Below, in pieces: positions 1 to 21,698 of a DNA stretch of 64,000 nt; the first letter of the stretch is position 1; every line of letters starts with the position of its first letter. The notes beneath the pieces were generated by a model. That model saw nothing but the letters and a program-made list of their open reading frames with translations. It made no database searches and was not told where the DNA came from. The stretch spans positions 498,927 through 562,926 of the forward strand of contig NZ_WTUY01000002.1 of NCBI RefSeq assembly GCF_009882945.1, read 5' to 3'. Source of the stretch: Alcanivorax sp. DP30. GTDB lineage: Bacteria; Pseudomonadota; Gammaproteobacteria; Pseudomonadales; Alcanivoracaceae. Position numbers and translations under genes: made by a program.

Positions 1-824
1 TGAAGAACCGGAAGATCCTCAGCAGTGACCTCGAAAGGCGAAGAACCTGACTGATCGTAAAGAATGTCAAAGGTGAGATGGAAATCGGTTCGACTACCCG
101 GTGCGCTCCTGACAATGATCCCGTCAGAGTCAACGCCGACAGCCCCCTGCTGCATATTAAAAAGAAAGCCTAAGTTATCAAGTACAAGTTCGGAAGAACC
201 TGCAATATTATTTTGAGCATAATAAAACTGGCTAGGGCTATTGATTGTCCAATTGCTCGGAGCGGGATCTGAAGCGTCGACAGAACCAAGGTTTATTAGA
301 AGCCCTGCATCAGTAGCCGTGGAGTTCAGAATCCCTCCATCACCTTTTAGAACAAATCGTCCGTTACTATCAAACGCCGCACGACCAAAGGTAGCGCTCG
401 TGTCATCAGCCATATATATCGCGCCTGTTGACACACGCATTCTTTCCCAAAAAAGATCAATTGCCAGGCTCGGCCTTCCTGAATTAGTGTTAGTAAAGGC
501 ATCAATAGCGACAGAAATATCTAGCGGAGAGGTTGCGACGCCCCCAAGAGGCCCAACAGGAACGATATCAATTTGGTCTACAAACAATGTATTGCTATCA
601 ACGACTGATGACTGGTCCGTTGCCCAAGAAATTTGGGAGATTTCTATACCGTTGCTCAGATCTGAGCTGTCACTTTGAAGGTTAATCGTCACCCCATCAC
701 GGCCCGAAACGGCAGACAGTTCGTGCTCTGAAAGAGAGTCCATTGCAACAACCTGCCCAGCAATCAAGAATAAAATTCCAGATCGGAGTGCTGTGCGAAT
801 CGTGTCAAGGTCAACTATAACCAT
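1..824 (-). CDS. Exported FilA/DUF6160-like header protein, C-terminus cut by the window edge
   Basis: The frame stays open from an ATG at 824 to the window edge (about 274 codons, stop not seen). I translated it through and found no stop. The start follows AAGGGG at a good distance. A signal peptide (hydrophobic LFLIAGQVVA) is followed at once by MDSLSEHELSAVSGRDG, the header shared with the next three genes and with the FilA-like gene at 20868. The rest is Asp/Ser/Thr/Gly-rich with short alternating hydrophobic stretches, as in exported beta-strand proteins. It lies 10 bases after the preceding gene, so it is probably the last visible gene of a four-gene operon. Function is unknown; by analogy it is a surface or pilus-like structural protein. 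The base composition is AT-richer than the prp genes. Confidence 0.75.
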   Translation of the reverse strand, partial: MVIVDLDTIRTALRSGILFLIAGQVVAMDSLSEHELSAVSGRDGVTINLQSDSSDLSNGIEISQISWATDQSSVVDSNTLFVDQIDIVPVGPLGGVATSPLDISVAIDAFTNTNSGRPSLAIDLFWERMRVSTGAIYMADDTSATFGRAAFDSNGRFVLKGDGGILNSTATDAGLLINLGSVDASDPAPSNWTINSPSQFYYAQNNIAGSSELVLDNLGFLFNMQQGAVGVDSDGIIVRSAPGSRTDFHLTFDILYDQSGSSPFEVTAEDLPVL

Positions 825-834
825 GATATTCCCC

Positions 835-1968
835 TTAACAGAATCTGTTGTTGCCGTAGCAGTTAATTGCCGGAGTCTGATTCAATTCAATATTTGTGAG
901 ATTAACCCCCTCCCCTAAGGCAGAGATTGCATCTAATAAGTTCAAGGTTACTTGCTCACCCTGAATATTAAGAACTTTCACATCAGGCACATTCATCCAC
1001 CAGCCTGTATTGGCAGTCTGAGTATATGCATTTTGATCAAAGTTTGGATAACTAATACGCTCACGCTGAAAAGATAGACCAAAATCACTTGTATCTTGCA
1101 AGGCGAAGCCGTGGATAAACCTTAGCGACTGAGAAATATCTGCACGAGCGGAACTAATCAGATCAAACAGGCCTCCGTTGTTTGTCAAATCCACATCTTG
1201 GAGACCGACTGCAGTCATTCTAGTACCCGTCACTTGCGTCGTAAATTTTTCCGAAGGGCCGCAGTCATCAGAGGTGTTCGCCGTATTACCGAAACATGCG
1301 ATACCCGAAAAGCCAGCCCCGAATAAAATATTTAGCTTAATGGGAACAGCGACAGACATTTCAACACCCAAGGCCCCGCTCAAATTATTAATGCCGGAAT
1401 GACAATTTAACGCATTACTCCCAGACCCGCACTGCCCGCCATTTTCATGATTTATTTGGCCGCTTTGATAGCGCCTGCCGATACTTACAAAGCCATCTGC
1501 GGACTGCGAACCAATTTTAATGCCCGCAATCTGTCGTAATGTTGGATTGTCATCGTTTTTAACTGCCAGCTCCACAAACGGACGAGTTAGCTTAAAATCA
1601 GATGTCACAGGACTCCCTGGACCACTGCCAACACGCCCCATAAAGCTGACGTAGTCGAAGTCAATATCACATCCCACAACCAGATTATCGTTCACGCCCC
1701 CACACCCCAAAGCGAGCTTGTCAATATTTGCGTTCATTGCAAGCTCAACATCAAGGCCCATGCGATAAAAACCAAATTCGTTATAAGGATCACCGTCATT
1801 GGTACCGACACCACTCACATAATCGGAAACAAACAAAGCCTGACCTGTTATATCGCTTAGTTCATCATCATCAAGGGATGTCATGGCTTTAGACGAGGGC
1901 GAGTTCAAAAACAAGCAAACCACGATCAATGAGATAGAACAGCCATGAATAAAAGCATTAACTTTCAT
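835..1968 (-). CDS. Exported FilA/DUF6160-like header protein with cysteine pairs
   Basis: The 377-residue protein has a signal peptide (positive MKVNAF start, hydrophobic ISLIVVCLFL, likely cut after SSKA) and then the header MTSLDDDELSDITGQA. Compared with the bacteriocin-type leader LSxxELxxIxGG, it matches at L, E, L, I and the first G, with Q in place of the last G. The mature part holds several paired cysteines (GCGG..GCD, QCG..NCH, CFG..DCG, CYG..RFC at the very end), which suggests periplasmic or surface disulfides. Its ATG overlaps the upstream stop by one base (TGATG), so translation is probably coupled. Its own stop is within the Shine-Dalgarno region of the next gene. No enzyme motif is seen. 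The specific role is unknown. Confidence 0.75.
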   Translation of the reverse strand: MKVNAFIHGCSISLIVVCLFLNSPSSKAMTSLDDDELSDITGQALFVSDYVSGVGTNDGDPYNEFGFYRMGLDVELAMNANIDKLALGCGGVNDNLVVGCDIDFDYVSFMGRVGSGPGSPVTSDFKLTRPFVELAVKNDDNPTLRQIAGIKIGSQSADGFVSIGRRYQSGQINHENGGQCGSGSNALNCHSGINNLSGALGVEMSVAVPIKLNILFGAGFSGIACFGNTANTSDDCGPSEKFTTQVTGTRMTAVGLQDVDLTNNGGLFDLISSARADISQSLRFIHGFALQDTSDFGLSFQRERISYPNFDQNAYTQTANTGWWMNVPDVKVLNIQGEQVTLNLLDAISALGEGVNLTNIELNQTPAINCYGNNRFC

Positions 1969-3281
1969 CAGTTGGCCCCCAAACTTGTGATTTTAAGATG
2001 TTGCACCAACAAGCCTTCAACCCGAGCATCTCCGAGGTTAAACGCATTTCCTGTCATTGAGTAATTAATACTGTTGTTGCCCTCAGGGGCAGAGTTATTT
2101 GTTCTTGCGTATGCCTGAAAGGTTTCACCTGCAGGGGCTTTAAAGTAGATGCCATCCGTTGTATTTGCATCAGAATTGTTGCTACTAGGGTCACCCCAAT
2201 AAACATAGCCATGGGTTTCATTATAACGTTCAGGTCGCCCCGTACGCTTGTATCCACAATCGACACCCGAATAAACCCCAGTGCAATCACTCGAGAAACT
2301 ATAAAAGTCGTTATAAATATTTGCGTCGTTACCAGGGAGTCGAGTGAGTTCTATCACAAAATTCCCGTCACCTGGTGCCACATTGTCTAAAGTAATCGCT
2401 TGATAATGAAGCTGCCCCAAAGGCAGGAAAGCATCTACGTTTTTGAAATGCACACCCTCATTATCATCAAAGTTCGGAACTTCATGTAAACCGTCTGGGC
2501 CTCCATCCGTCGAATGGGCTACTGAGAAACGAAAGTCACCAGACAGTGCACTTTGGTACATAAGCCCAAAGGTAGGATCAGCAGTATTTTCAACCTTCAG
2601 AAGTCTGAGAATTGCTGGTCGCCCATCAGCAGTAATGGGTTTACCATAAATGATGGTTTGGCTTTGAAGAAAAGTTGCCTCACTGTGGTTTGAACCAACA
2701 TCAGCGGGCGAACCAGCATTTCTGCCTACCTCAAGCTCCCCCAAGAAAGACCAGCGCCATGGATCGGGTACCTTACTTGGCCCAATCAACTCCAATACTG
2801 TTGGCATAGAATTAGCGGATCCGGGGGCTATTTGATTACGATACGTGCCTTGATAGTCATATCCTTCATACTGAAAAACTCGGAGGAGGAATGGGTTATA
2901 GACCGACGCAAAATCACTGATAGTCCCAACTCCTAACGGGCAAGAGAGAGGGTCGGCACTGGCGCAGCCATCACCATACCAGTCGGTCCCACTCCCTCCT
3001 CCTGTGAGAGAAAGGCCATAGTAACGAGCATCCCCACGCTGCCAATTTGCTCCTCCATCAGAGCCAGTTAGCTCAATATAGCTGGTCGGAGCCATTGCAA
3101 AACGAAAATCATCGAGAGCGACAGCAATACCTGCGCCACTAACACCAGACAATGCCTCATCACTAAGTGATGTCATCGCAGAAACATTAGTAGATATGGT
3201 GAAAATAGCTAGAAAGTTTAAAGCTGCTCTCCAGCTAAGATTGCAGCACCACCGGCCCATAGAGTTAGAAACCGAAGACAT
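1968..3281 (-). CDS. Exported FilA/DUF6160-like header protein (437 aa)
   Basis: I chose the ATG at 3281 because AGAGGGAG lies just upstream; an in-frame start at 3332 lacks such a site. The protein starts MSSVSNSMGRWCC, has a hydrophobic export segment (ALNFLAIFTISTNVSA) and then the header MTSLSDEALSGVSGAG. This copy has G-A at the place of the double glycine, a pair that C39 peptidases are known to accept. The mature region is rich in Asp, Gly, Asn and Tyr, with cysteine pairs (GCASADPLSC, DCTGVYSGVDC). It overlaps the upstream gene by 17 bases and the downstream gene by one, typical of a tightly coupled operon. No catalytic motif is visible; a structural surface protein is the best guess. 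Confidence 0.72.
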   Translation of the reverse strand: MSSVSNSMGRWCCNLSWRAALNFLAIFTISTNVSAMTSLSDEALSGVSGAGIAVALDDFRFAMAPTSYIELTGSDGGANWQRGDARYYGLSLTGGGSGTDWYGDGCASADPLSCPLGVGTISDFASVYNPFLLRVFQYEGYDYQGTYRNQIAPGSANSMPTVLELIGPSKVPDPWRWSFLGELEVGRNAGSPADVGSNHSEATFLQSQTIIYGKPITADGRPAILRLLKVENTADPTFGLMYQSALSGDFRFSVAHSTDGGPDGLHEVPNFDDNEGVHFKNVDAFLPLGQLHYQAITLDNVAPGDGNFVIELTRLPGNDANIYNDFYSFSSDCTGVYSGVDCGYKRTGRPERYNETHGYVYWGDPSSNNSDANTTDGIYFKAPAGETFQAYARTNNSAPEGNNSINYSMTGNAFNLGDARVEGLLVQHLKITSLGAN

Positions 3282-4026
3282 AAGCACTCCCTCTAACATC
3301 CGCCCCTGCATAAGCAGAGTTGTTATCAGCAATGCTTATCCCCAGAAATGAACCAAGGTTGTTCTGCGCATAGCCTGTGGCACCGTACTCTATTGAAGCA
3401 CCACCTATCGTCAGCCCCATCCTTATACTGTCGTAACCGGAACTAACCCCACCAGTTCCAGGGCTACCAGGGGTATACGTCGGGTCAGTGAATGCCCCCC
3501 CCGAATAAGAGCCGGGCATTCTCACCACCATCGCTGGAAGGTTCTCAAACCCTACTCCAGTCGACAGATCAGAACAGTCAATGCCATTGCCTAACAAGCA
3601 ATTCCCAGAGCTATCGAAGAATTTAGAGGAATCATAAGTTGCAGGATCACTATCAGCAGCTGACAAATAACCGCCATCTAGGTAGAGATTGTCAATTCGA
3701 AGGCTACCGTAGAAGTCTTTTAGAACTAGCCACTCGTTCGCTCTGTTCGCGAAATTTAGAGCCAACCTACAAGTTCCTGCAGGAGATGAATCAAAGTTTC
3801 CCAGACCGCACCCTGTTACTTGTTGAAATTGGCCATTATTAATATCAACAAGACCATCACCGTTAATGTCTACGACATTAATGTCTAGCTCGAGCCCGAT
3901 TGCGATGCCTGATTGGCCAGTTACACCCTGCAACACGAGATCATCGACAGGCTTCATATCTGCGCGACACAGGCCGCAAGCAGTCAGACTTAAGATTGAT
4001 GATGAGAGAAGCAAGAATGAGCGCAC
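3265..4026 (-). CDS. Exported FilA/DUF6160-like header protein, first gene of the four-gene set
   Basis: I favour a GTG start at 4026, preceded by GAGGT; the frame is open to 4122, but that start has no good ribosome site. The product then begins MRSFLLLSSSILSLTACGLCRADMKP. It carries both a lipobox-like LTAC and a possible signal peptidase I site at CRA/DMKP, so lipidation is possible but unproven. The header is MKPVDDLVLQGVTGQSG, followed by IAIGLELDINVVDINGDG, an alternating hydrophobic/Asp pattern like that of the FilA-like protein at 20868. Cysteine pairs (GCG..TC, NCLLGNGIDC) recur. It is the promoter-proximal gene of the operon running leftward to the window edge. Function is unknown. 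Confidence 0.7.
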   Translation of the reverse strand: MRSFLLLSSSILSLTACGLCRADMKPVDDLVLQGVTGQSGIAIGLELDINVVDINGDGLVDINNGQFQQVTGCGLGNFDSSPAGTCRLALNFANRANEWLVLKDFYGSLRIDNLYLDGGYLSAADSDPATYDSSKFFDSSGNCLLGNGIDCSDLSTGVGFENLPAMVVRMPGSYSGGAFTDPTYTPGSPGTGGVSSGYDSIRMGLTIGGASIEYGATGYAQNNLGSFLGISIADNNSAYAGADVRGSAYVFGF

Positions 4027-6620: not shown

Positions 6621-9224
6621 TTAGCCCGCTTCCGCCATGAACTCCTTGGCGAATTTCTGCAGGATGCCGCCGTTGGTGTACACGGACACTTCTTCTTCGG
6701 TATCCAGTCGGCACAGCATCGGCACACGCTCCACGTCGCCATTCTGGCGAGTGATCACCAGCGTCAGAGTAGCGCGGGGAGACAGGTCGCCTTCCACGTC
6801 GTAGATCTCGGTGCCATCCAGCGCCAGGGTCTTGCGGGTGGTGCCTTCCTCGAACTGCAGGGGCATCACGCCCATGCCGATCAGGTTGGTGCGGTGGATT
6901 CGCTCGAAACCTTCGGCAGCAATCACTTCCACGCCGGCCAACGCCACACCCTTGGCCGCCCAGTCACGGGAAGAGCCCTGCCCATAGTCCGCGCCGGCCA
7001 CGATGATCAGCGGCTGCTTGCGTTCCATGTAGGTTTCAATGGCTTCCCACATGCGCATTTGCTCGCCTTCCGGCTCCACGCGAGCCAGAGACCCCTGGAT
7101 CACTTCGCCGTTCTCATCACGACACATCTCGTTGAACAGTTTCGGGTTCGCGAGCGTCGCACGCTGGGCGGTCAGGTGGTCACCACGGTGGGTCGCGTAG
7201 GAGTTAAAGTCCTCTTCCGGCAGGCCCATTTTGTGCAGGTAGGCACCCGCGGCGCTGTCCAGCAGGATGGCGTTGGACGGCGACAGGTGATCGGTGGTGA
7301 TGTTGTCCGGCAGGATCGCCAGCGGACGCATGCCCTTCATTTCACGCTGACCGGCCATGTTGCCTTCCCAATAGGGAGGACGACGGATGTAGGTGGACTG
7401 CGGACGCCAGTCGTACAGCGGGCTGGCTGCGCGCACACCGTCACCCTTCTTCTCGAACATGGGGATGTAGGTCTTGCGGAACTGCTCAGGCTTCACCGCA
7501 GATTTCACGATGGCATCGATCTCTTCATCAGAAGGCCAGATGTCCTTCAGGTAGATCGGGTTGCCGTCCTGGTCCTTGCCCAGCGCATCTTTTTCGATAT
7601 CGAAGCGCATGGTGCCGGCGATGGCATAGGCCACCACCAGTGGCGGTGACGCCAGGAACGCCTGCTTGGCGTAGGGGTGGATACGGCCGTCGAAGTTACG
7701 GTTGCCGGACAGTACTGCAGTGGCGTACAGGTCACGCTCGATGACTTCTTTCTGGATCTTGGGATCCAGCGCACCGGACATGCCGTTACAGGTGGTGCAG
7801 GCAAAGGCCACCACGTCAAAGCCCAGCGCCTGCAGTTCAGGCAGCAGACCGGACTCTTCCAGGTACATCTTCACGGTCTTGGAACCGGGAGCCAGGGAGC
7901 TCTTCACCCACGGCTTGCGTACCAGACCCAGCTTGTTGGCGTTACGGGCCAACAGGCCGGCGCCGATGATGTTGCGCGGATTGGAGGTGTTGGTACAGCT
8001 GGTGATGGCGGCGATGATCACGGCGCCATCGGGCATCAGACCGTCTTCTTCCTTCCACCCTTCCTGCCACTCTTTGGCGATACCACGGCTGCCCAACTCG
8101 GAGACCGGCAACAGTGCATGGGGGTTGGACGGGCCCGCCAGGTTACGTTCCACCTTGGACAGATCAAAGTGCAGTACGCGCTCGTACTCGGCACTCTTCA
8201 GGCTGTCGGCCCACAGGCCGGTTTCCTTGGCGAACGTTTCTACCAGGGCTACCTGCTCGTCTTCACGGCCGGTGAGCTTCAGGTAGTCGATGGTCTGGCC
8301 ATCAATGAAGAACATGCCGGCGGTGGCACCGTACTCCGGCGTCATGTTGGCGATGGTGGCACGGTCGCCCACGGTCAGGCTGTCTGCTCCTTCGCCGTAG
8401 AATTCCAGGTAGGCGCCTACCACGCGCTCACGGCGCAGGAACTCGGTCAGGCACAGCACCAGATCCGTACCGGTAATACCCGGCTTCAGTTTGCCGGTCA
8501 TTTCCACGCCAACGATGTCGGGCAGACGCATCATGGACGGATTGCCTAGCATTACGTTTTCGGCTTCCAGACCACCTACACCCACGGAAATCACGCCCAG
8601 GGCGTCAACCATGGGGGTGTGGCTGTCGGTGCCCACACAGGTATCCGGGAACGCCACACCATCGCGAACCTGCACCACCGGAGACATTTTCTCCAGGTTG
8701 ATCTGGTGCATGATGCCGTTACCTGGCGGGATCACGTCCACGTTATCGAACGCGGTCTTGGTCCAGTTGATGAAGTGGAAACGGTCGGCGTTGCGGCGCT
8801 CTTCCACGTCACGGTTTTTCTGGAAGGCGTCTTTATCGAAACCTGGGTGCTCAACCGCCAGGGAGTGATCCACGATCAGCTGGGTGGGCACCACCGGGTT
8901 TACTTTTGAAGGGTCACCGCCCTCTTCGGCGATGGCGTCACGCAGGCCAGCCAGATCCACCAGTGCGGTCTGGCCGAGAATGTCGTGACACACCACGCGC
9001 GCCGGGTACCAGGGAAAATCCATGGTGCGCTTGCGCTCAATCAGCTGCTTGAGGGAATCGGTCAGGGATTCCGGCGCACAGCGACGCACCAGCTGTTCGG
9101 CCAGGATGCGCGAGGTGAACGGGAGTTTGTCATAGGCCCCAGGCTGGATGGCGTCGACAGCCGCACGGGTGTCGAAATAGTCCAGCTGGGTGCCGGGAAG
9201 CTGCTTGCGATATTCAGTGTTCAT
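6621..9224 (-). CDS. acnD: Fe/S-dependent 2-methylisocitrate dehydratase AcnD
   Basis: AcnD is the aconitase-family enzyme that dehydrates 2-methylcitrate to 2-methylaconitate; PrpF is its required partner. The 867-residue protein starts MNTEYRKQLPGTQLDYFD, the usual AcnD N-terminus. Iron-sulphur ligands are in SCTNTSNP (near residue 410) and ACTTCNGMSG (two cysteines near 476-479). GADYGQGSSRDWAAKG in the C-terminal swivel domain is the substrate-binding serine loop. The length is typical of AcnD and shorter than AcnA. It lies downstream of prpC with a 145-base REP-containing gap. Its last 50 bases recur twice downstream. The ribosome site is modest (CCAGG). Confidence 0.96.
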   Translation of the reverse strand: MNTEYRKQLPGTQLDYFDTRAAVDAIQPGAYDKLPFTSRILAEQLVRRCAPESLTDSLKQLIERKRTMDFPWYPARVVCHDILGQTALVDLAGLRDAIAEEGGDPSKVNPVVPTQLIVDHSLAVEHPGFDKDAFQKNRDVEERRNADRFHFINWTKTAFDNVDVIPPGNGIMHQINLEKMSPVVQVRDGVAFPDTCVGTDSHTPMVDALGVISVGVGGLEAENVMLGNPSMMRLPDIVGVEMTGKLKPGITGTDLVLCLTEFLRRERVVGAYLEFYGEGADSLTVGDRATIANMTPEYGATAGMFFIDGQTIDYLKLTGREDEQVALVETFAKETGLWADSLKSAEYERVLHFDLSKVERNLAGPSNPHALLPVSELGSRGIAKEWQEGWKEEDGLMPDGAVIIAAITSCTNTSNPRNIIGAGLLARNANKLGLVRKPWVKSSLAPGSKTVKMYLEESGLLPELQALGFDVVAFACTTCNGMSGALDPKIQKEVIERDLYATAVLSGNRNFDGRIHPYAKQAFLASPPLVVAYAIAGTMRFDIEKDALGKDQDGNPIYLKDIWPSDEEIDAIVKSAVKPEQFRKTYIPMFEKKGDGVRAASPLYDWRPQSTYIRRPPYWEGNMAGQREMKGMRPLAILPDNITTDHLSPSNAILLDSAAGAYLHKMGLPEEDFNSYATHRGDHLTAQRATLANPKLFNEMCRDENGEVIQGSLARVEPEGEQMRMWEAIETYMERKQPLIIVAGADYGQGSSRDWAAKGVALAGVEVIAAEGFERIHRTNLIGMGVMPLQFEEGTTRKTLALDGTEIYDVEGDLSPRATLTLVITRQNGDVERVPMLCRLDTEEEVSVYTNGGILQKFAKEFMAEAG

Positions 9225-12575: not shown

Positions 12576-12583
12576 TCAGCCCA

Positions 12584-14527
12584 TTAGGGAATACAACCCT
12601 CTTCGGCGAACTGCACCGCACCAGACTGCAGGGAGGCAAACACCAGACGCTCAAGATCGGCAGGTGATTCCTGACTGGACCACCCTGAGCGCTGAATGGC
12701 CGGCAGGAATTGCAGATCAACCCAGCCTGCACGAATCTGGTCATCGAAATTGGCATCACCCAGGCGGTACATGGGTGAACAGGTGCCATCCAGATCGATG
12801 CGCCCTTGAATTTCCACGTTATAGTGCGGCGCCACCCCACGAACATCCAGCCCGGGCGCCAAACGCAGGAAGACATTGACGCTATTGGAGTCAGGCAAGG
12901 TACGGGTCACCATACCAACTTCATTGGCGGTGCCACAGGCGCCATTATCACCAGCGGTAATCAAACCATCAGAACCGATAGACAGACAAAAGTCCGCCAG
13001 ATCGTTTTCGTCTTCACGCACGCGCTCGGTGGTGATGTCCACGGTTGTGGATCCACGTGTGATGGATTCCGGATAGTTCGCGCCAATCTCAAGGGTTGGA
13101 TTAGGGATCGACTCGCACTCACTGCCATCATCAGACTCGCCAACACAGGGCCGCATCAGGCTCACCCGATAATCCCCGACCACCGATGCCAACACTGATG
13201 CATCAAGCGCAATCTCTACCGAGCCAGTTTTGGTGCCACGCACCGGCATTGGGCTTTCCGAAGTCCCGGGATCACCATCATCCGGCCGGGGTACAGCTCG
13301 GCCAAGCAGCTCTCCAGCTACTTCACCTTTTTCATTCCCCTGCACCGTGTAAGCGGTGTTTGGGTAATCCAGATCAAAGTCACTGCCTCCCCCGGTGGAT
13401 ATGCCCGTGTAAATGGTTTGCCCCAGAATCCTGCCCTGCAGCTGAGCATCCGTGTTTGAAGGAGGAGTATCGCCAATCCCGGCGCCGGTCAATTGTACTG
13501 TCTCGGTCAGGGTGTCGCTGTTTACCAGCAAAAGGGTATCGGACAAAGAAGCCGTGCTTTGCAGACCCACGAAATCTACTTCCGATTCCGTGTCCGTAGA
13601 ACGAATCAGCTGCCCACCCGCGAGCACCTTCCCAGTGGGAAGGACCAGGCTGTTCATGGCCAGGGCAAACCGGGAACCATCGTCAGCCCTGAAATCACAG
13701 TTATCAACCAGCAGGCACTCACCGGCACTTTCCAGTAAATAAAGCCCGGCACGGGTGCGGTTGGCTGCCTGTGTTATGCGCGCTTCATAGGCAGTTGTAT
13801 CGGCCTCAAATCTGGCGACGGAGTCCTTGGACTCTGCCGCGAGTGCAGCATCGACATTGTCCAACAGATCCTGCCAGGCCAGCACGAATGCATTGTAATC
13901 ACTATAACCATCAAACGGCTGGCTTGGGATGTCGCCAGCGTTTTCATCAATGACATCGTTAATGTCTACGCCTGTGCCCAGCTCCAGTTCTGCCGCGCTG
14001 CGTGTCTGAATGCTTACTTCATTATCCGCATCCCCATCATTGTCCAGCGCCTGAAGCAACGCAGAGCGATACAGCACCGAATCGTCGACAGCACTTCGGG
14101 TCGGGGGGAGAATCAGGTCAGCAACGGTGACCTGAAAGTTATCCTTGCGCAATTGCTGTGGAAAGAGGAAGGAACCGAGGGTTATCTTGTTGCCTTCAAA
14201 CAGGCCATTGCCAAGGAAAAATTCGATTTCCCGACTACTGGCCGGACAAAGCGCGGTGTAGGGAGGGATTACCGTAGCTTCACCATCCGTATCCGTGGTG
14301 GTACGCTCACTGTCCGAGGTGAAAAACACCACTTCAGTGCCAGTACAGCGATAACCCACATTACTAATCTTGGGCCCGGTGAGCTCAACAAATACCTCGC
14401 CACGCACAGTCTGGTCGCAAGGCGCTCCTGCTGGACATCCGGGAACGGTAGCATCAGAAAAGTCCTCGCCGCCATTACACCCCATCAGGGCCAGGGACAA
14501 GGTGGTCAGTGCAAACACAAAACGCAT
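12584..14527 (-). CDS. filF: Large lipoprotein, FilF-like (putative pilus-system protein)
   Basis: The 647-residue product starts MRFVFALTTLSLALMGCNGG, a clear lipoprotein signal (LMGC). I chose the ATG at 14527, which has AGGA seven bases upstream; a TTG two codons earlier does not. The body is Asp/Thr/Ser/Gly-rich with many cysteine pairs (GCPAGAPC, ECLLVDNCD, ECES) and no enzyme motif. It is the last gene of the cluster that runs from the FilA-like gene leftward. That order (header protein, C39 peptidase, two barrel-type proteins, lipoproteins) matches the fil cluster annotated in Acinetobacter as a putative pilus system. The filF name rests on position, size and character, not on a search. 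It may be a cell-surface adhesin or tip component. Confidence 0.6.
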   Translation of the reverse strand: MRFVFALTTLSLALMGCNGGEDFSDATVPGCPAGAPCDQTVRGEVFVELTGPKISNVGYRCTGTEVVFFTSDSERTTTDTDGEATVIPPYTALCPASSREIEFFLGNGLFEGNKITLGSFLFPQQLRKDNFQVTVADLILPPTRSAVDDSVLYRSALLQALDNDGDADNEVSIQTRSAAELELGTGVDINDVIDENAGDIPSQPFDGYSDYNAFVLAWQDLLDNVDAALAAESKDSVARFEADTTAYEARITQAANRTRAGLYLLESAGECLLVDNCDFRADDGSRFALAMNSLVLPTGKVLAGGQLIRSTDTESEVDFVGLQSTASLSDTLLLVNSDTLTETVQLTGAGIGDTPPSNTDAQLQGRILGQTIYTGISTGGGSDFDLDYPNTAYTVQGNEKGEVAGELLGRAVPRPDDGDPGTSESPMPVRGTKTGSVEIALDASVLASVVGDYRVSLMRPCVGESDDGSECESIPNPTLEIGANYPESITRGSTTVDITTERVREDENDLADFCLSIGSDGLITAGDNGACGTANEVGMVTRTLPDSNSVNVFLRLAPGLDVRGVAPHYNVEIQGRIDLDGTCSPMYRLGDANFDDQIRAGWVDLQFLPAIQRSGWSSQESPADLERLVFASLQSGAVQFAEEGCIP

Positions 14528-14557
14528 AGTCAATTCCTGTGATTCTGCAGGGGGTAA

Positions 14558-15409
14558 TCACTGGCCTATCAGGACCAGCTCCCCCTGCGTCACTTGTATT
14601 AATCCGTCGGTACCCGGCTGTTCTTCAGAATAGGGAAGGAAAACAACCAGATACTGTTGACCTGTTTCCCGCTCGAGGGTTCCCTGCAGATACCCGTAGC
14701 GGTACCAGGTTTCCGGGTATTTGCGGCTGAATGGCTGATCCACCAGCATGACTGGCGTACCCTTGGCATCCAGCCAGAGCAGCTCCACCGCCAGATACCC
14801 CTTCTTTTTCACAAAAGCATTCAATGTCAGGCCTGATAGCCCCTGATCCAGTTCGAATACCCTTGCCCGATAACCGTTTTCCCCTGTCATTCGGGGGCTA
14901 TCGGCATCGAACGCCACCAGATTCTCGCTGCCTGCGTCCAGAACCGTTGCTGTTTCCAGCATATGAACACAGCAATCCGCCCTTAGTGGACGGTAGGTTT
15001 CCATGAAACCGTCGGAGGCCACAGCCTCATAGGGTGCGGGGGCGGCCTGGGCGGCGGCACGCTCTGCCCCCATGTCTAGGGGACGGCTCACTAATTGACC
15101 GGTTTCATCAATATAGGTAACGAACCGCTGGTTTTCCCGCTCGACCAGCTCCTGGTCCACCTCTCCACTGGGGCGGTAGTCATCCAGATTATCCATCCCG
15201 GCGGGCGGGACTTCAGCAACTTTCGGATTGGAGGTAGTGGCGGATGGCTTCGCCGGAGGGCTGGCCACGACGTCCGGCTTGCGCTCCATGGTCACCAGGT
15301 TGCCCTGGGCATCGGTATAGACATACAGGCCACTGGATTGATCGCCTGTGGGCATGGAGCCCTGGCACCCTGCCAGAGCCACCAGAGCCAATGCAAGAAG
15401 ATGTCGCAT
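14558..15409 (-). CDS. filE: Lipoprotein, FilE-like by position
   Basis: The 283-residue lipoprotein has the lipobox LAGC at residues 12-15. Near residue 27 it has GLYVYTDAQGNLVTMERKP, resembling the DUF4124-type 'YxYTDxxG' start, and residue 108 on resembles it again (VTYIDETGQLVS). The C-terminal half (from about 150) looks like a compact beta domain. Its ATG overlaps the stop of the FadL-like gene by one base (TAATG), so the two are translationally coupled. The filE name is positional. A periplasm-facing outer-membrane accessory of the barrel protein is a fair inference; no catalytic residues are recognised. Confidence 0.55.
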   Translation of the reverse strand: MRHLLALALVALAGCQGSMPTGDQSSGLYVYTDAQGNLVTMERKPDVVASPPAKPSATTSNPKVAEVPPAGMDNLDDYRPSGEVDQELVERENQRFVTYIDETGQLVSRPLDMGAERAAAQAAPAPYEAVASDGFMETYRPLRADCCVHMLETATVLDAGSENLVAFDADSPRMTGENGYRARVFELDQGLSGLTLNAFVKKKGYLAVELLWLDAKGTPVMLVDQPFSRKYPETWYRYGYLQGTLERETGQQYLVVFLPYSEEQPGTDGLIQVTQGELVLIGQ

Positions 15410-17076
15410 TAAAATTTCGTTCTGAATGCCAGGCCGATCATGGTGATCTTGGCCTCAGTCTTGATATCAAGACCCGCGTACGGGTTATAGACCACGTTAT
15501 CGATACCGGTGCAGTTTGCCGCGCAGCTGGTATTCGCCGGTATCTCGTCCTTGCTGTGCAGCATACCAATACCCAGGTCGATATCGGTATCTTTATCCCA
15601 CTTGTAACCCAGACCCAGGCTGTAATAACGGGCCTCATTGATCGGTACCATGGGGCTGCGACGTTCTTCCGGGATCGCCGAGGCACGCGGCTCATAGCCC
15701 GCACGCAACTGGATACGGCCGGTCAGGTCATAGGCGGCACCGAACGCCAGGTTCCAGGTGGACTGGAAGTTCAGCGGGTAGCTGAGACGCGTGGGCGTAG
15801 AGCCCGGAGAGAACAGTCGTGCCAGGCTCAGCACGGCGGAACTGCGGTCGAACACGATATTGAACGCATCCCACTCCTTGTAGTCCGCCCACACCGCATC
15901 CACATTGAACTGGAGGCGCTCTGTGGGTTTGATCTTGATCCCGGTCTGGAAGGTAGCAGGCATGGTCAGATCCATGCTCACCCGCCCTACTTCGTCCTGG
16001 TCCACGTAAGACGGGACACCCAGCACAGCCAGGGCCAACGCACCGGTAGCCGAGCCACCAATACCATTGATGGTTTCCCGGGCGGCATTGGAATAAGAGA
16101 TCTTGTAATCGCCCTTCATGTGGGTTTTGGCTGCCGAACGCCAGGTGGCACCCCACGCGAACCGGTCATTCGGTTCCCAGAGAATGCCCAGGTTGTAGGA
16201 CGGGCTGAAACGCTGGTCCATGGACACATCCAGGGATGCCAGATTCTTGAAGGGCCCAAGCCCCTCCTGGGGGCGACAGATACCGAACAGGATCAAATCT
16301 AGTGCGATATTGGACTCGCCTGCGAACGGGGCACAGATACTTTCATCAATCACTCGAGCAAAGCCCAGCAGTTCGTTGGGTGCTCGAAAATCCTGCTCCA
16401 GCGCAATGGCCTGATAGCTCATGCCGATGGATGCACCGATGAACAGCTCATCATTGACCCGGTAACCAATGGACGGAGACAGATAGGTGATCCGCTCCAG
16501 CGCCACCCTCTCGCCCATGAAGTTACCGACGTCATCTTCGTCCCGGTAAAAGCCCGCTGCCAGCGGCAGATAGGTGGCCGTGGCAAACGTGAACTTGGAG
16601 CCCGCAGGGCGAATGGAAAATGCTGGCAAGGGGCCGGCAATCAGTGGCCCTGGCGGCAGATCCACGGTGTCATTCAGAAACGGGATATAAAGCGAGATAC
16701 CCTCAACTGAGCTTGTGGCCGTTTTGAAGCTTCGGCAGTAGTCCACCCCATCGTTCGGCACGTCATCACAGACCACCGGATCATCGGAGAAACCAAACAC
16801 ATTGTAGCCCGGCGGTGCGGAAAACTCGGATTCCAGCGTAAAGTCCGCCCCTACAAACTGAAGGTCCATGCGACGACCGTCCAGCTTGGCCAGACCTGCA
16901 GGGTTGAAGTGAATAGCAGAAATCCCGGGGGGATCTGCCGTCACCGCATGCCCCATGCTCATGGCTTTGACATCAATGGCAATGTTATTGGCGAGCTGCG
17001 CATTGCTAACGCCCGCCACCATTCCGAGCATGGCAGCAATCAGCCGCAACCCTGGCCGTTTATAATTATTCTTCAT
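15409..17076 (-). CDS. filD: FadL/OmpP1-family outer-membrane protein, FilD-like
   Basis: The 555-residue protein has a signal peptide (MLGMVAGVSNA, cut near residue 26). Behind it is the FadL-type N-terminus with AMSMGHAVTADPPGISAI and HFNPAGLAKL, the conserved 'NPAGL' hatch region. It ends in RTKF, a terminal Phe as in outer-membrane barrels. Alternating aromatic beta strands fill the rest (SIGYRVNDELFIGASIGMSY and others). Typical FadL is about 450 residues; the extra length is in loops with cysteines near residues 100 and 515. In hydrocarbon users FadL proteins import long-chain substrates, but here the gene is within the fil-like set and so may serve surface-protein assembly. Both roles are possible. 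Confidence 0.8.
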   Translation of the reverse strand: MKNNYKRPGLRLIAAMLGMVAGVSNAQLANNIAIDVKAMSMGHAVTADPPGISAIHFNPAGLAKLDGRRMDLQFVGADFTLESEFSAPPGYNVFGFSDDPVVCDDVPNDGVDYCRSFKTATSSVEGISLYIPFLNDTVDLPPGPLIAGPLPAFSIRPAGSKFTFATATYLPLAAGFYRDEDDVGNFMGERVALERITYLSPSIGYRVNDELFIGASIGMSYQAIALEQDFRAPNELLGFARVIDESICAPFAGESNIALDLILFGICRPQEGLGPFKNLASLDVSMDQRFSPSYNLGILWEPNDRFAWGATWRSAAKTHMKGDYKISYSNAARETINGIGGSATGALALAVLGVPSYVDQDEVGRVSMDLTMPATFQTGIKIKPTERLQFNVDAVWADYKEWDAFNIVFDRSSAVLSLARLFSPGSTPTRLSYPLNFQSTWNLAFGAAYDLTGRIQLRAGYEPRASAIPEERRSPMVPINEARYYSLGLGYKWDKDTDIDLGIGMLHSKDEIPANTSCAANCTGIDNVVYNPYAGLDIKTEAKITMIGLAFRTKF

Positions 17077-17105
17077 GGCTCACCCCATCCAACTGCATTC
17101 ACGGC

Positions 17106-18119
17106 TTAGGCACCGGGTTTCAGGCCGGAGAAATCAATCGGCATGGAAATTCCAAGCAGTACATCGGGGGAATCTTCGGTCAAACCGAAACCGAAGCTAA
17201 GGTTAACGATACGGTTGCTGGAGGTTCGCAGACCCAGAGAGGTATTCACCACACTGGACGTGGAATCTTCCGACGAAGCGGTGTAATCCTCAAAGATGAA
17301 GTCAGTTTCGAAGTTGTAGGACTGCTGGTAGCTGGCACTCAGCGAGACTTCATAGGACAGGGAATACGCCAGACCCATGGAGAAATTCAGGCTATCGCCC
17401 GGACTAACATCAGTCAGAATTTCGCCACCGCGCACCTGATTAAGGCCACTCACATCAAAGGCATAGGTGTACCCCAGTGAGCCAAACAGCACCACCGGGT
17501 CGATCACCTTGCTGACGCTCAGCCCTGCGCCCACAGAATAATAACCTGACCCACTGGAAACCTCCTCACGCACGTTCAGCTCGTAGGGGCTGTCGCCGGT
17601 CGGCGTGCTCAGGGTGGTGTAGAGGGTGGTGTTCATGGCGCCCGGCTTCACCGGGAACGGCTGAAAACGCAGACCAAAGGACACATCACCCAGCGCGGCC
17701 TGAGAGACATCCTTCTCGGTGTCGTACTTGTAGGACACCGGCAGACGGGTATTGAAGGTCAGGTTATTCCAGATGCCGTAGTCCAGGGAGAGCGACGAGG
17801 AAAAAGCATGCTGGGCATCCTGCTCGATGCGGAAACGGCTGATATTACCGGTATTTTCATCGATGGCGATATCGATGCGGTCATCACGGTAATAGTTGTA
17901 GTTCGCCGAGAAGTTCAGTGACATCTGGCCACTGGGCAGCAGTGAATACTGCTTCTCTGCAGCCTGGAACACCTCTTCCAGGTTCTTTTCCTGCGTGACA
18001 TCATCTTCTTGGGTCTGCAGCGCTTCACGGGCTTCATCCACGCTGTCTGCCGCCCAGGCAACATGCTGCGCCAACAAGAGTGCAGCCGCGGCGGCCACCT
18101 TCCCAGACATCATCTTCAT
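17106..18119 (-). CDS. filC: Outer-membrane beta-barrel-type protein, FilC-like
   Basis: The 337-residue protein has a clear signal peptide (AAAAALLLAQHVAWA, cut before ADSVDEA). A short charged helical stretch (residues 25-55, EEVFQAAEKQYSLLPSG) leads into a run of alternating strands (MSLNFSANYNYY, HAFSSSLSLDYG, FNTRLPVSYKYD) like transporter-type barrels of the 'meta-pathway of phenol degradation' group. AAGGAAGG precedes the ATG. It lies between the C39 peptidase and the FadL-like gene with short gaps (44 and 29 bases), so it is in one operon. The filC name is by order and character. Its exact function is unknown. Confidence 0.62.
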   Translation of the reverse strand: MKMMSGKVAAAAALLLAQHVAWAADSVDEAREALQTQEDDVTQEKNLEEVFQAAEKQYSLLPSGQMSLNFSANYNYYRDDRIDIAIDENTGNISRFRIEQDAQHAFSSSLSLDYGIWNNLTFNTRLPVSYKYDTEKDVSQAALGDVSFGLRFQPFPVKPGAMNTTLYTTLSTPTGDSPYELNVREEVSSGSGYYSVGAGLSVSKVIDPVVLFGSLGYTYAFDVSGLNQVRGGEILTDVSPGDSLNFSMGLAYSLSYEVSLSASYQQSYNFETDFIFEDYTASSEDSTSSVVNTSLGLRTSSNRIVNLSFGFGLTEDSPDVLLGISMPIDFSGLKPGA

Positions 18120-18163
18120 GCAAGCCTTCCTTTATTCTGTTTGTTATTTGCCACTGCAGGCTA

Positions 18164-18976
18164 TTACTTACGATAGTAGGTTCGGGTGGGAACATTAATG
18201 ACCCTTTCTGAGCCATTCTGGTCCGTCACGAGAACCCTTGTCAGTGTACTGGCCTTATCCGCCCAGTTTTCTATTGGCGCAGTAAACACCGGAAAAACTT
18301 CAAACGCCCAGCGATTGATGGTTCGTTCATCCAGCAAACGCAGGTCGTAATCGGTCAGCTCCAGACCATCCTGGGGCTCAAAACCGTTTGGAAACACAAT
18401 AAACAGGACGTTCTGATCCCAGATTTGCAGAAACTTGCTTTCCGTAAAGCTGATATTCCCCAACGCAGGGTCTGCCACGAAAATGTGGCCATCCTGGTAT
18501 TTCTTGAGAACCACGAAGTGTTTGAAACCGCCATAGGCGATGGGAACAATCGCCGGGTGATCAAGCTCCCGGATATCGTCCATCTCGGCGCGGAAGCCAC
18601 CACTGGGGTGACCCAGTGCGGTAGCCAGGCGTTTCATGTCCAGCAGGGAAAAGCCCCGGCGCTCCACGATCTTGTCGGTCTCACCGAAGCGCAGCAGCCC
18701 TTCCATGATCTGACGCTCCTGGAACTGACGTCCAAGATATTGATTAAGTACGGTGGTCAGGGCAGCGGAGCCACAGGAGTAATCGTAGGCCTGGCGCACG
18801 ACATTGTGGTAGCGAAACTCGGAAACCGGCTTCTCAACCACGATGCCGCGGTCTCTCAGAGGAGCAGGACTGGTCGGGTGCTCGTAGTAGATCTCCCCTT
18901 TCTTGGGGGGCTCGATCACCACGGACTCGTTGGCAGCAAAGTAGATCAGCGCCACACCCAGCATGGAAGTCAGCAT
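18164..18976 (-). CDS. filB: Stand-alone C39-family cysteine peptidase, FilB-like
   Basis: The 270-residue protein has the C39 (bacteriocin-leader peptidase) fold signature: Gln62 and Cys68 in RQAYDYSCGSAAL, His153 in GGFKHFVVL and Asp169 in FVADPALG, so the catalytic set is complete. It lacks the ABC-transporter parts to which C39 domains are usually fused. A short N-terminal hydrophobic stretch (MLGVALIYFAA) suggests membrane anchoring or export, placing the catalytic domain in the periplasm. It belongs to the fil-like operon; Acinetobacter FilB is annotated as a C39 peptidase. Likely substrates are the header-bearing proteins encoded at 20868-21698 and 1-4026, whose N-termini resemble double-glycine leaders. 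That link is my inference. Confidence 0.82.
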   Translation of the reverse strand: MLTSMLGVALIYFAANESVVIEPPKKGEIYYEHPTSPAPLRDRGIVVEKPVSEFRYHNVVRQAYDYSCGSAALTTVLNQYLGRQFQERQIMEGLLRFGETDKIVERRGFSLLDMKRLATALGHPSGGFRAEMDDIRELDHPAIVPIAYGGFKHFVVLKKYQDGHIFVADPALGNISFTESKFLQIWDQNVLFIVFPNGFEPQDGLELTDYDLRLLDERTINRWAFEVFPVFTAPIENWADKASTLTRVLVTDQNGSERVINVPTRTYYRK

Positions 18977-19203: not shown

Positions 19204-20793
19204 TCACAAAGAGAGATCGTACCCATAGCGCTCCGCAGCCTCCTTGAAATGAGGCAGCACCGGAGCCATCCACTCTGCATAGTTACGCCACCGCTCCTTG
19301 GAACTATCATAAATCTTCTGAGTCACTCCTTGGTAACTTGGCGTCGCCAAGGTCCCTCGCTGTTTAGCATGCTCGTCGTAATTAAGCACGGCATCATCCC
19401 AAGGCAACCCAAGGAAATCCAGCGCCTTTCGAGCCTCCCCTTCCAGATCCATAACCAGATCCTCATAACGGATATAGTGCATGCGATCCTTGAGATCGAA
19501 CACCTCCTCATACTGCCAGAGAAGCTTCATAACGTGCTTGTAAAAACTGGCGGCGTTGTCCAAATCAAGGAAGTTAGCCATGGCATCATTCATTTTAAAG
19601 TTCTGCATATACCCACTGAGCACGCAATCGGCAGGATGACGCAGCGAGACAATAAATTTCGCATCCGGGAACAGGCGTAAGATCAAGCCTATATCGACGG
19701 TATTCAAAGGCATCTTTTCTATTAAGACACTGTTCTCACGAAGCTGAAGCTCCTGATCCACAACTTTGAAGTACGTTTCACGAAACCCCCTCACCTGCTC
19801 CTCACCAATAGCCTTGATATAGTCCATCACCGACAGCCATTGAGACTTCCATCCTGAAGACTTATGCAATAAGCCAGCTTGCGTCGCCATGGCTTGCATC
19901 CATGACGTACTCTGCCGAAGCACCGTCGCCATCGTGGGCGGCTCTTCCATGGCCTGAATTTCCGGATGAGAATCCAGTACCTGCTCAAGCAAAGTCGTCC
20001 CTGAGCGGGGAAATCCAAGCATGAAAACCGGGGTACGAGACGGACTTGACAGCTCAGACCAAGAACCCACCCAATCCTTGGTAAAAAGTGTCCTAAAAAC
20101 CTCAACCCGACGGCGTATCGCGTTTTTTGAAACAAGACGAGATTCTATTTTCGATTGAATCTGATTGCCTTTAGTAGCAGCAGAAAAGGCTGCGCCATAT
20201 TCTCCTTTGGCGTCCAAGGCCTTACCCAGCACCTTAAGGACTCCCCCCATATACCGATCTGCCTTTTTCCCATTGAGCCTCTGAGGAAGCTGATCGATTA
20301 ACGCTTTATAGTTTTTCTTTTGAAGCTGGACATTGCCCCACAGGAGCAAGGCTCTTGATTCCGCGCCTTTGTCATTAAGCTTATCGAGCTCTGCCAGCTC
20401 CTTCAGCGCGCTGTCTGGATCAAGCAATCGCTCATAAGCTTCTGCCCTCGCAAGGAAGTACTCAGCATTTATTGAGTCAGACCATTTACGAACTTTTGAA
20501 AGAGCAGTCAAAGCATCCTGCCACCGCGCATCTGCATGGTAAGCCTGGTACATCAACTGCCAGCTTCTCCAGTCTTTTGGAGCCACCCGTACAATTGGCT
20601 CAGCCAGATCATAAATTTGCTGGACATCGTCATAACCCAATGCCGATCTAAAACAGAAATCAGCAGCGCCATAATCTACATAGCCTTTCGCCACGAAACG
20701 CAATACCAGCTGAGACGCACTTTTATAATCGCCTTTTTCACACAGAATTTTAACCGAAGAAGGGAGCTCTTTTGCCGTCAAGACTTGCTTCAT
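19204..20793 (-). CDS. TPR-containing sulfotransferase
   Basis: Residues 1-220 form helical tetratricopeptide-like repeats (for example NAEYFLARAEAYERLLDPD), followed by a sulfotransferase domain. The phosphate loop of the PAPS site is GFPRSGTT near residue 256, and the 3'-phosphate motif is in VSLRHPADCVLSGY near 385. The family moves sulfate from PAPS to sugars, tyrosines or other acceptors. I chose the ATG at 20793 because AAGAG lies six bases upstream; this falls just past the filA terminator. The gene is AT-richer than its neighbours (42% GC in a 60-base line I counted) and separates filA from filB, so it may be a later insertion. The acceptor is unknown; a header protein is one possibility. 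Confidence 0.85.
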   Translation of the reverse strand: MKQVLTAKELPSSVKILCEKGDYKSASQLVLRFVAKGYVDYGAADFCFRSALGYDDVQQIYDLAEPIVRVAPKDWRSWQLMYQAYHADARWQDALTALSKVRKWSDSINAEYFLARAEAYERLLDPDSALKELAELDKLNDKGAESRALLLWGNVQLQKKNYKALIDQLPQRLNGKKADRYMGGVLKVLGKALDAKGEYGAAFSAATKGNQIQSKIESRLVSKNAIRRRVEVFRTLFTKDWVGSWSELSSPSRTPVFMLGFPRSGTTLLEQVLDSHPEIQAMEEPPTMATVLRQSTSWMQAMATQAGLLHKSSGWKSQWLSVMDYIKAIGEEQVRGFRETYFKVVDQELQLRENSVLIEKMPLNTVDIGLILRLFPDAKFIVSLRHPADCVLSGYMQNFKMNDAMANFLDLDNAASFYKHVMKLLWQYEEVFDLKDRMHYIRYEDLVMDLEGEARKALDFLGLPWDDAVLNYDEHAKQRGTLATPSYQGVTQKIYDSSKERWRNYAEWMAPVLPHFKEAAERYGYDLSL

Positions 20794-20809
20794 AACCAAC
20801 TCTTTTTAA

Positions 20810-20838
20810 ACAAAAACGCCCGGCAAAGAGCCGGGCGT
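20810..20838 (-). terminator. Strong intrinsic terminator directly after filA
   Basis: Read on the minus strand: CGCCCGGC-TCTTT-GCCGGGCG followed by TTTTTGTTT, a textbook rho-independent terminator. It ends about 17 bases before the ATG of the sulfotransferase gene, leaving no room for a promoter, so downstream genes probably depend on read-through or on an internal promoter. Confidence 0.93.
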
Positions 20839-20867
20839 TTCAGAATAGCACCAAAGTGCTGTGGAAC

Positions 20868-21698
20868 TTAGTGACCAGAGATAGTGATGGTTTGGCCAGA
20901 AAGATCCAGACCAGTAATGTAAACATTACCGATAGCCGGTGCAGAGCCGTCGTCAGCACCAAAAGCAACACCCATGGCAGCAATATTGATGCCTGAGAGA
21001 GCGGTGTTTGTAGCGATTTCCAGGCCAGAGGTAGTGATGTTGCCGGTAATGCCGTTAACATCTACGTTCCGAATGGAGATCTGATCAGCAACCAATGCGC
21101 CACCACCGCCAGCACTCTGATCACGCAGAGTGAGGTTATCGGTAGCATTACCCAGCGTACCAATGTCGATGGTCAAAACAGAAGTTGTAGAAAGCGCAAA
21201 GAAGTTGGCGGCCTCGGAGCCCAGCTGCACGGCAAGATCAACGTTATCCAGAGTCAGGCTTACGCTATCCAGCAACGGATCACCTGCCCCCAATGCTGTC
21301 AGCTCAGTCCCAACCTTGGCAATACCTGCAGCCACATCACTACCGTCCGTACCTTGGCCGACGTAAATATCACCTGTATCAATGGTCAGAGAAGGCACAG
21401 AAATATAGGCCTGCAGAACACCACCACCGGAAGCGGTACTGGAAGAATCGATCTCGATAGTGATGTCACCAGTAAGACCCATGTTGTCGATCAAGATCAT
21501 ACCTTCGCCAGTGTTAGTGCCGAAGCCATCAGTGTCTTCAATACCCACGTCCAATTGGGCGTTCAGGCTCAGACCAATAGAAATACCATCCTGACCAGTT
21601 ACGCTGGACAGGGCTTCGTCCTGCATGGGCTCGAGAGCCAGGGCGCTCATGGGCGCGGCGGCTACGGCAGCTGCAAGAGCAAGTTTCTTAAAACCCAT
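20868..21698 (-). CDS. filA: FilA-like (DUF6160-type) exported header protein
   Basis: I chose the ATG at 21698, preceded by GAGGAGA at six bases. The signal peptide (MGFKKLALAAAVAAAPMSALA) is followed by LEPMQDEALSSVTGQDG, the header conserved in FilA-type proteins and in the four proteins at 1-4026. The 276-residue product then has long repetitive alternating stretches rich in Asp, Gly, Ser and Thr (ISIGLSLNAQLDV, GDITIEID, SLTIDTGDIYV, ILTIDIGTLG) with no cysteine in the mature part, consistent with a secreted beta-solenoid or a fibre subunit. A good ribosome site and a strong terminator right after the gene fit a highly expressed major subunit. It heads the fil-like cluster. The actual structure is unknown. 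Confidence 0.78.
   Translation of the reverse strand: MGFKKLALAAAVAAAPMSALALEPMQDEALSSVTGQDGISIGLSLNAQLDVGIEDTDGFGTNTGEGMILIDNMGLTGDITIEIDSSSTASGGGVLQAYISVPSLTIDTGDIYVGQGTDGSDVAAGIAKVGTELTALGAGDPLLDSVSLTLDNVDLAVQLGSEAANFFALSTTSVLTIDIGTLGNATDNLTLRDQSAGGGGALVADQISIRNVDVNGITGNITTSGLEIATNTALSGINIAAMGVAFGADDGSAPAIGNVYITGLDLSGQTITISGH

Follow-up and report, generated by a model that had tools for sequence, protein, structure and literature searches.

A probable post-Sec leader of the double-glycine class and its candidate peptidase, the C39-family protein FilB, in Alcanivorax sp. DP30

The 64,000-nucleotide stretch of Alcanivorax sp. DP30 analysed here (the window; contig NZ_WTUY01000002.1, positions 498,927 to 562,926) encodes five exported proteins that carry a common segment of about 15 residues behind their signal peptides, which we call the header, together with FilB, a stand-alone peptidase of family C39. 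We propose that the header is a leader of the double-glycine class which comes into play after Sec export, and that it is probably removed in the periplasm by peptidases of the FilB/FapD type before the protein is secreted through a channel of the FilC/FapF type. The proposal builds on the header motif, its place and its spread, its co-occurrence with FilB, the active-site residues and the predicted C39 fold of FilB, the pairing of FilB with FilC, and a parallel in FapE of the Fap amyloid system.

The header and the proteins that carry it

All five header segments reported in the first-pass annotation are present at the genes named, on the minus strand and no further than 21.7 kb from the window start. 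Their shared positions had been listed as -12, -8 or -9, -7, -4 and -2 (counted back from the end of the header), which holds except for VDDLVLQGVTGQ, where no acidic residue stands at -8 or -9; a further conserved hydrophobic position that the list lacked, Leu or Met, was found at -15. Searching the window with a profile of 15 residues derived from 38 headers, at a threshold of 9 and with a signal-peptide filter, returned exactly these five segments. With the filter switched off, the same five were found at thresholds of 12, 15 and 18, and seven matches at a threshold of 9. A profile built from the headers of other genomes only (25 headers) scored the window five at 16.1 to 33.0 bits. All counted headers sit behind a signal-peptide-like segment, the presence of which also served as a selection filter.

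Leu, acidic residues and Gly often form short motifs behind signal peptides, and since each header motif is short on its own a chance resemblance has to be considered. The five real matches compare with 0.0–0.3 profile matches per window in residue-shuffled controls. Pfam models the header segment as the front of the family DUF6160 (PF19657), and at E ≤ 0.001 this family was absent from 14 control genomes and from 268 of the 274 genomes sampled from the class; at E ≤ 1, three of the 14 control genomes gave a match, none of them above cut-off. An origin by chance is scarcely credible on these numbers.

The count of five header genes proved too low for the genome as a whole, which measures 3.6 Mb and encodes a single FilB: it holds 13 header genes, made up of filA and three four-gene cassettes, two of which lie outside the window. 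The cassette, H4-H3-H2-H1, is found at positions 3-4026 of the window (minus strand) and on contig C22 at about 526-530 kb and about 630-635 kb, and each of its four genes is mutually similar across the three copies.

Two further genomes, G138 and G251, encode 15 and 18 header proteins beside one FilB each, most of them small (about 65–250 residues) and distributed over many contigs; an additional match of 10.3 bits in G251 was left out as chance. When 61 header proteins (score of at least 13) from eight genomes were clustered by BLASTP on the sequence behind the header, they fell into 33 groups without similarity at E ≤ 0.01. Column information was computed over the best-scoring member of each group and reached 3.2 bits at -12, 3.1 at -1, 3.0 at -2, 2.5 at both -10 and -7, 2.4 at -4 and 2.1 at -15, followed by 0.87 at +1 and about 0.3–0.6 from +5; there is some circularity in the height of the header columns, but none in the dissimilarity downstream of the header. 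Position -2 is Gly in 33/33 groups and -1 is Gln in 29/33. Leu or Met occupies -7 in every group and -15 in 30, with a hydrophobic residue at -15 in all 33; Met or Leu is found at -12 in 31/33 (hydrophobic in 33/33) and Val or Ile at -4 in 31/33. Position -10 is mostly Asp, and -8 is Glu, Ala or Asp in 32 of the 33.

Pfam merges signal peptide and header into one family, and the five window proteins match DUF6160 at least weakly: two exceed the cut-off of 27 bits (57.1 and 32.8) and the others reach 25.2, 19.4 and 15.9. This would suit a header that is simply the conserved N-terminus of a DUF6160/FilA family, a capping helix of the beta domain kept by descent, with the C39 peptidase acting elsewhere. 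Yet the 33 downstream groups show no similarity to one another by the above measure, and in seven of eight small cargo proteins the DUF6160 match ends at or near the header end (profile position 38–48, 0 to nine residues past the header). All eight matched DUF6160, five of them above cut-off, and no other Pfam family was found above cut-off in these eight. In the predicted FilA model the header lies outside the beta-rich domain, with a low-confidence helix at residues 27–34 (-10 to -3) and the first strand starting at residue 39, the third residue past the header. Header and FilB are moreover gained and lost together, even within a single genus (g274, described below). We regard conservation by family descent as quite improbable, and the header as likely to be a leader rather than a protein family, used by many unrelated cargo proteins. 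With a single leader shared by many unrelated cargo proteins whose genes lie elsewhere, the leader would act in trans. A profile search gave no solved relative of FilA (best E 0.16, a polygalacturonase), and the best Foldseek match of the FilA model, a pilus-like filament (9xfv; E 0.13), was not significant.

The number of header proteins also bears on the idea that FilB has its substrate only inside the fil operon, be it FilA or part of FilC, and that the scattered header proteins are handled otherwise. The gene for FilA usually precedes that for FilB, and in the related Fap system the linker of FapF has been suggested as the place of cleavage by FapD (PMC5557850; here and below, published statements refer to excerpts of the cited papers). 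Against such a restriction, the scattered proteins bear the same header as FilA, and in G138 and G251 the 15 and 18 header proteins stand beside a single FilB; we hold it to be highly improbable.

FilB as the candidate peptidase

FilB (270 residues) matches Pfam Peptidase_C39 at 71.9 bits (cut-off 22) over residues 58–193 and no other Pfam family, in line with the earlier description of a peptidase without an ABC (ATP-binding cassette) transporter domain. The residues named there, the catalytic Gln62, Cys68, His153 and Asp169, are all present, and are invariant in 26/26 aligned relatives. Judged from these features, FilB is a stand-alone member of the C39 family and not a PCAT or bacteriocin ABC exporter. 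It matched the NCBIfam model pilus_FilB (NF050078) over its full length at 299.6 bits (below the cut-off of 475) and FapD (NF058616) at 121.4 bits (below the cut-off of 330), and its identity as FilB is backed by the neighbouring genes for FilC and FilD. The closest named FilB in our scan is that of Alcanivorax sp. S6407, with 96% identity. Blocks within residues 71–200 of the predicted model have a predicted local distance difference test score (pLDDT) of 79–89, and this core retrieved PCAT1, ComA and LahT by Foldseek at E 1.4e-7 to 5e-6. Its -1 pocket gave no firm result, the reading coming from one pairwise alignment. By analogy with FapD, FilB is presumably located in the periplasm. A second C39-like frame of 322–361 residues, apart from FilB, was seen in G007 (C6:66612), G138 (C37:8181, scoring below cut-off), G251 (C7:69049) and G511 (C319:5737).

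The header follows the leaders of ComA, LahT and PCAT1 in spacing, position by position. In ComA the motif consists of Phe(-15), Ile(-12), Leu(-7) and Ile(-4), LahT reads the hydrophobic residues at -4, -7 and -12, and C39 peptidases cut after GG, GA or GS (PMC10885120). For PCAT1, the consensus is L(-12)xxxE(-8)L(-7)xxxxG(-2)G(-1), the leader is helical from -10 to -4, and the cleft at the place of the cut is narrow (PMC6959990). FilB thus has the C39 fold, as predicted, and the active-site residues in common with these enzymes, and the header has in common with their leaders the hydrophobic positions -12, -7 and -4, the ComC-type position -15, and -2. There are also differences: PCAT1, LahT and ComA possess an ABC domain and work in a cytosolic setting, whereas FilB has no such domain and is presumed periplasmic; and double-glycine leaders form the N-terminus of a cytosolic precursor and end in GG, GA or GS, whereas the header stands behind a Sec-type signal peptide and, with its invariant Gly at -2, mostly ends in Gln.

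In the mechanism that we propose, the precursor would pass through Sec and lose its signal peptide to signal peptidase I, leaving the header (about 15–16 residues) as the N-terminus in the periplasm. FilB, probably held in the inner membrane by its N-terminal hydrophobic helix, would bind the header, folded into a short helix, by its hydrophobic positions -15, -12, -7 and -4 and would cut at or beside G(-2)-Q(-1). The cut would commit the protein to export through FilC, an outer-membrane channel of the FapF type. The first-pass annotation had already suggested that the C39 peptidase trims the header proteins in the periplasm. Co-occurrence and the match to known leaders support this indirectly; that FilB recognizes the header and cleaves it, at which bond, and that the product leaves through FilC, is what we infer from them.

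In the genomes compared, header proteins proved not to be widespread where this kind of C39 peptidase is lacking; the opposite outcome had been named in the first-pass annotation as grounds for abandoning its reading. Among the 274 genomes of the class, DUF6160 (E ≤ 0.001) was found in six and FilB (above 200 bits) in six, and these six are identical; 33 more genomes with weaker matches to the FilB model (26 to 131 bits) had no DUF6160 match. A sample of 145 genomes from the order had DUF6160 in 19, FilB (above 150 bits) in 18 and both in 17; G278 and G330 are the two with DUF6160 alone, and G331 the one with FilB alone. G331 was rejected as a case of FilB without header, as the profile detects a header gene there (11.8 bits). 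Header and FilB occur in the same six of the nine genomes from the order of G138. In a sample of 299 genomes from the phylum DUF6160 was found in 11, nine of them with FilB and the others being G330 and G511, the remaining 288 having been searched for FilB only in part; G330 was rejected as an exception because the frame matching DUF6160 carries no header. In genus g274, header and FilB are both present in G581 and G650 (the FilB match in G650 spans one stop codon) and both missing from G334, G526, G626 and G674, three of these four giving a weaker match of 96–109 bits, a strength also observed with FapD-like peptidases. The pooled table counts 28 genomes with both, 3 with header only, 1 with FilB only and 397 with neither; it includes genomes picked after the fact and assumes that paired searches drew the same genomes, four of them shared. 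As related genomes are not independent, the p-value of a Fisher test on this table was set aside and is not used as evidence.

A search with the FilB alignment provided a view of the neighbourhood in 80 named loci, the best of 498 confirmed. In 71 of these 80 a header gene of the same orientation precedes FilB at a distance of up to about 3.5 kb, a FilC homologue adjoins FilB in 80/80, and FilD comes after it in 79/80, the exception (L069) being a cut-short sequence. Near the FilB of G138 no FilD was found in more than 9 kb of sequence past FilC, the search being confined to this neighbourhood; in G251 and G010 only a short stretch of contig follows FilC, too little to judge on FilD. From the FilC found in every locus and the FilD missing near FilB in G138 it follows that the constant pair is the peptidase and the FapF-like channel. 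Loci L088, L089, L090, L108, L105, L130 and L132 contain FilB-FilC-FilD with no neighbouring header gene.

A related header in Fap-type loci

Fifteen of the 33 genomes with weaker hits, taken from the better-scoring end, were examined at their FapD-like peptidase. A FilC/FapF-like barrel is encoded within 10 kb of it in 15/15 loci, and in 14/15 there is a FapE-type protein with the pattern [LVI]xxxx[LM]xx[LMI]RG[GKR][FY] (e.g. LSDEELGGLRGRY and LSDDTLDTLRGGF), preceded in all 14 by a start codon and a hydrophobic stretch that resembles a signal peptide. Eleven of these 14 proteins came from the FapE profile, which also pulled in FapB- and FapC-like proteins, and three (L156, L161 and L163) were assigned by inspection. 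A relaxed version of the pattern was matched 23 times in all open reading frames of the 15 loci, compared with 3.6 times in shuffles, and 14 of the 23 are the FapE-type headers. The FapE of locus L208, which scores above its NCBIfam cut-off (348 vs 250 bits) and adjoins a FapC likewise above its own, carries LKDQELAQLRGK at residues 29–40. Several similar headers occur in small exported neighbours of FapD-like peptidases (e.g. LSAQELGEVSGA in L163).

In the fifteenth locus (L167), segments like LSDADMDGVTAG are found instead in three further exported proteins, encoded at positions 6630-7990 near a C39 peptidase. Their headers are of the type LxDADMDxVTAG, with Ala-Gly in place of Gly-Gln—a possible further leader type. 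A header-like segment of FapB, first noticed in L153 (GDALAGVNGA), was set aside because the same pattern, NALxxVxG, is found repeatedly within the amyloid repeats of both FapB and FapC. FapD-like loci were also seen as neighbouring copies, in G375 C78 (L210) and G333 C11 (L207).

Secretion of FapC requires a periplasmic, catalytically intact FapD and is abolished by a Cys-to-Ala mutant (PMC5557850). Excerpts of two reports describe the target of FapD as unclear, with no canonical C39 site seen, and single out FapE among the Fap proteins as having its N-terminus completely processed, peptides being absent from its first ~70 residues (PMC5557850, PMC6173800). The header in FapE suggests itself, from its sequence, as a candidate for this missing target and fits in kind. 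Fap (FapA-F) and Fil resemble each other in that an exported C39 peptidase (FapD, FilB) lies beside a barrel (FapF, FilC), with model matches below cut-off, and in that exported proteins carry a leader-like segment. They differ in the header end, which is Gly, Lys or Arg followed by Phe or Tyr in Fap and Gln in Fil, and in the FadL-type FilD and the many unlinked cargo genes, which belong to Fil. No match to the amyloid subunits FapB and FapC was found among the ten window proteins scanned, the scan being confined to these genes of the genome.

Several observations weigh against the header as a cleaved leader. Gln stands at -1 in 29/33 groups, whereas the described C39 peptidases cut after GG, GA or GS by way of a narrow cleft; it is because of this Gln that the proposed cut is placed at or beside G(-2)-Q(-1). 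In one pairwise alignment, I59 of PCAT1, which belongs to its hydrophobic knot, is paired with a conserved Lys of FilB (K115). Confidence in the FilB model is modest over its full length (mean pLDDT 66.0, predicted template modelling score 0.54), and the topology of the protein is ambiguous, its N-terminal helix lacking a basic n-region. That conservation ends so sharply at -1 is in part a product of the selection, as the proteins were chosen by DUF6160 or header score and the groups are represented by their best-scoring members. Nine of the 80 FilB loci have no header gene in reach, seven of them with at least 4 kb of upstream sequence; in the other two, the contig ends 1.0–1.6 kb upstream of FilB. 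G278, a metagenome-assembled genome that is 75% complete, has headers and no FilB. G511 (90% complete) has a real-looking header protein (LTAITDKDMDDVTGQ) and no FilB-like match at E ≤ 1e-10, its C39 frames being of ABC-transporter length plus one of 334 residues, and is the one clear exception to the co-occurrence. The FapE-type header sits some residues behind the signal-peptide-like stretch and not directly after it, and mass spectrometry misses ~70 residues at the N-terminus of FapE, while in L208 the header ends at residue 40. Finally, the co-occurrence of FilC with FilB is complete (80/80), and because FilC is equally constant, co-occurrence cannot separate the two as reader of the header.

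An unusual Gln at -1 and a FilC as constant as FilB would both suit a docking tag, bound by FilB or FilC, left uncut and retained on the mature protein. In some type 1 systems, C39-like domains that are inactive perform such docking without cutting. Such a purely docking domain would not need the catalytic residues, which are invariant in all 26 FilB sequences, and the Cys-to-Ala exchange in FapD, which abolishes FapC secretion in the related Fap system (PMC5557850), speaks against it as well. We consider a docking tag unlikely and retain the cleaved leader as the likely interpretation. Its wider form would be a general post-Sec route of Proteobacteria, in which a degenerate double-glycine leader behind the signal peptide directs dozens of otherwise unrelated proteins in each genome to a C39 peptidase of the periplasm that is coupled to a FapF/FilC-type channel, the P1 preference having shifted from Gly to Gln in the FilB clade and FapE being the substrate of FapD. 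For this generalization we judge the case to be evenly balanced.

The pairing of peptidase and channel is already published for Fap and for the nap island of Neisseria. fapD and fapF are co-localised in five further phyla (PMC6173800). The nap island encodes the C39 peptidase NapP, the FapF homologue NapF and the GG peptides NapA-C, and its authors propose that NapP cleaves these peptides in the periplasm before secretion through NapF (PMC11798529). Compared by description only, nap and Fil have a stand-alone C39 peptidase, a FapF-type channel and cargo with a double-glycine motif in common, and differ in that nap cargo consists of small cationic peptides with a true GG. Our searches of open-licence papers gave no account of a shared post-Sec leader, its link to DUF6160/FilA, its use by multiple cargo proteins, the Gln variant or the header in FapE; DUF6160 itself is mentioned there once, in an unrelated list.

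The fil locus of the window and what the header means

The features of the window are listed in Table 1. The gene order corresponds to filA-filB-filC-filD of the Fil "putative pilus" system of NCBIfam, and the window proteins give long matches to all four models, FilA, FilB, FilC and FilD, with scores below the curated cut-offs of these narrow models. The FilA-like protein reaches 122 bits with pilus_FilA (E 2.5e-35; cut-off 220), and FilD reaches 773 bits with pilus_FilD (cut-off 970). FilC additionally matches the FapF model at 73.1 bits (E 1.9e-20), again below cut-off. FilF and FilC are reported to be raised in the pellicle or biofilm of Acinetobacter baumannii (PMC3203104, PMC8792954).

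Table 1. Features of the window, listed in the direction of transcription (score: header profile)
Feature	Positions	Strand	Properties
filA-like gene (P0002, 276 aa)	20868..21698	-	Sec-type signal peptide, header, beta-rich domain; DUF6160 57.1 bits
Header of FilA, LEPMQDEALSSVTGQ	21591..21635	-	Residues 22-36; score 37.1
Sulfotransferase gene, between filA and filB	19204..20799	-	Pfam Sulfotransfer_3 147.9 bits
filB (P0001, 270 aa)	18164..18976	-	Stand-alone C39 peptidase, N-terminal hydrophobic helix; Peptidase_C39 71.9 bits
filC	17106..18119	-	Outer-membrane barrel, related to amyloid channel FapF; pilus_FilC 360 bits, below cut-off
filD	15409..17076	-	FadL/OmpP1-type outer-membrane protein; Toluene_X 230 bits
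Lipoprotein-like gene, filE position	14558..15409	-	Weak MalM and DUF903 matches, both below cut-off
Lipoprotein-like gene, filF position	12584..14533	-	Matches in Alcanivorax-type loci only
Header gene H4 (P0005)	3265..4026	-	Header MKPVDDLVLQGVTGQ at 3913-3957; DUF6160 32.8 bits; score 26.1
Header gene H3 (P0004)	1968..3281	-	Header MTSLSDEALSGVSGA at 3132-3176; DUF6160 15.9 bits (below cut-off); score 29.6
Header gene H2 (P0003)	835..1968	-	Header MTSLDDDELSDITGQ at 1840-1884; DUF6160 19.4 bits (below cut-off); score 34.3
Header gene H1 (P0006)	3..824	-	Header MDSLSEHELSAVSGR at 699-743; DUF6160 25.2 bits (below cut-off); score 27.0; extends past the window edge

The window differs from the Fil system in that filA and filB are separated by a sulfotransferase gene, relatives of which were found by tblastn at the corresponding place in 8 of the 80 FilB loci, some of them Alcanivorax-type. 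A sulfotransferase gene likewise adjoins a C39-bearing exporter in raxST-raxB of Xanthomonas (PMC3897388), and because of this parallel FilA may be sulfated. The gene at the filE position has strong matches only in Alcanivorax-type loci among the 80, and the protein encoded at the filF position has no match in Pfam or NCBIfam.

As for the meaning of the header, it would offer an exact candidate for the bond that FapD cuts in FapE and a reason for the presence of a peptidase in the Fil operon, and it would turn DUF6160 from a "family of unknown function" into a probable leader. Should Gln at -1 truly be cut, the known specificity of C39 peptidases would be broadened. The cargo of C39 peptidases paired with FapF-type channels would become listable from sequence alone, and numerous small exported proteins in which no domain is known would be predicted to leave the cell.

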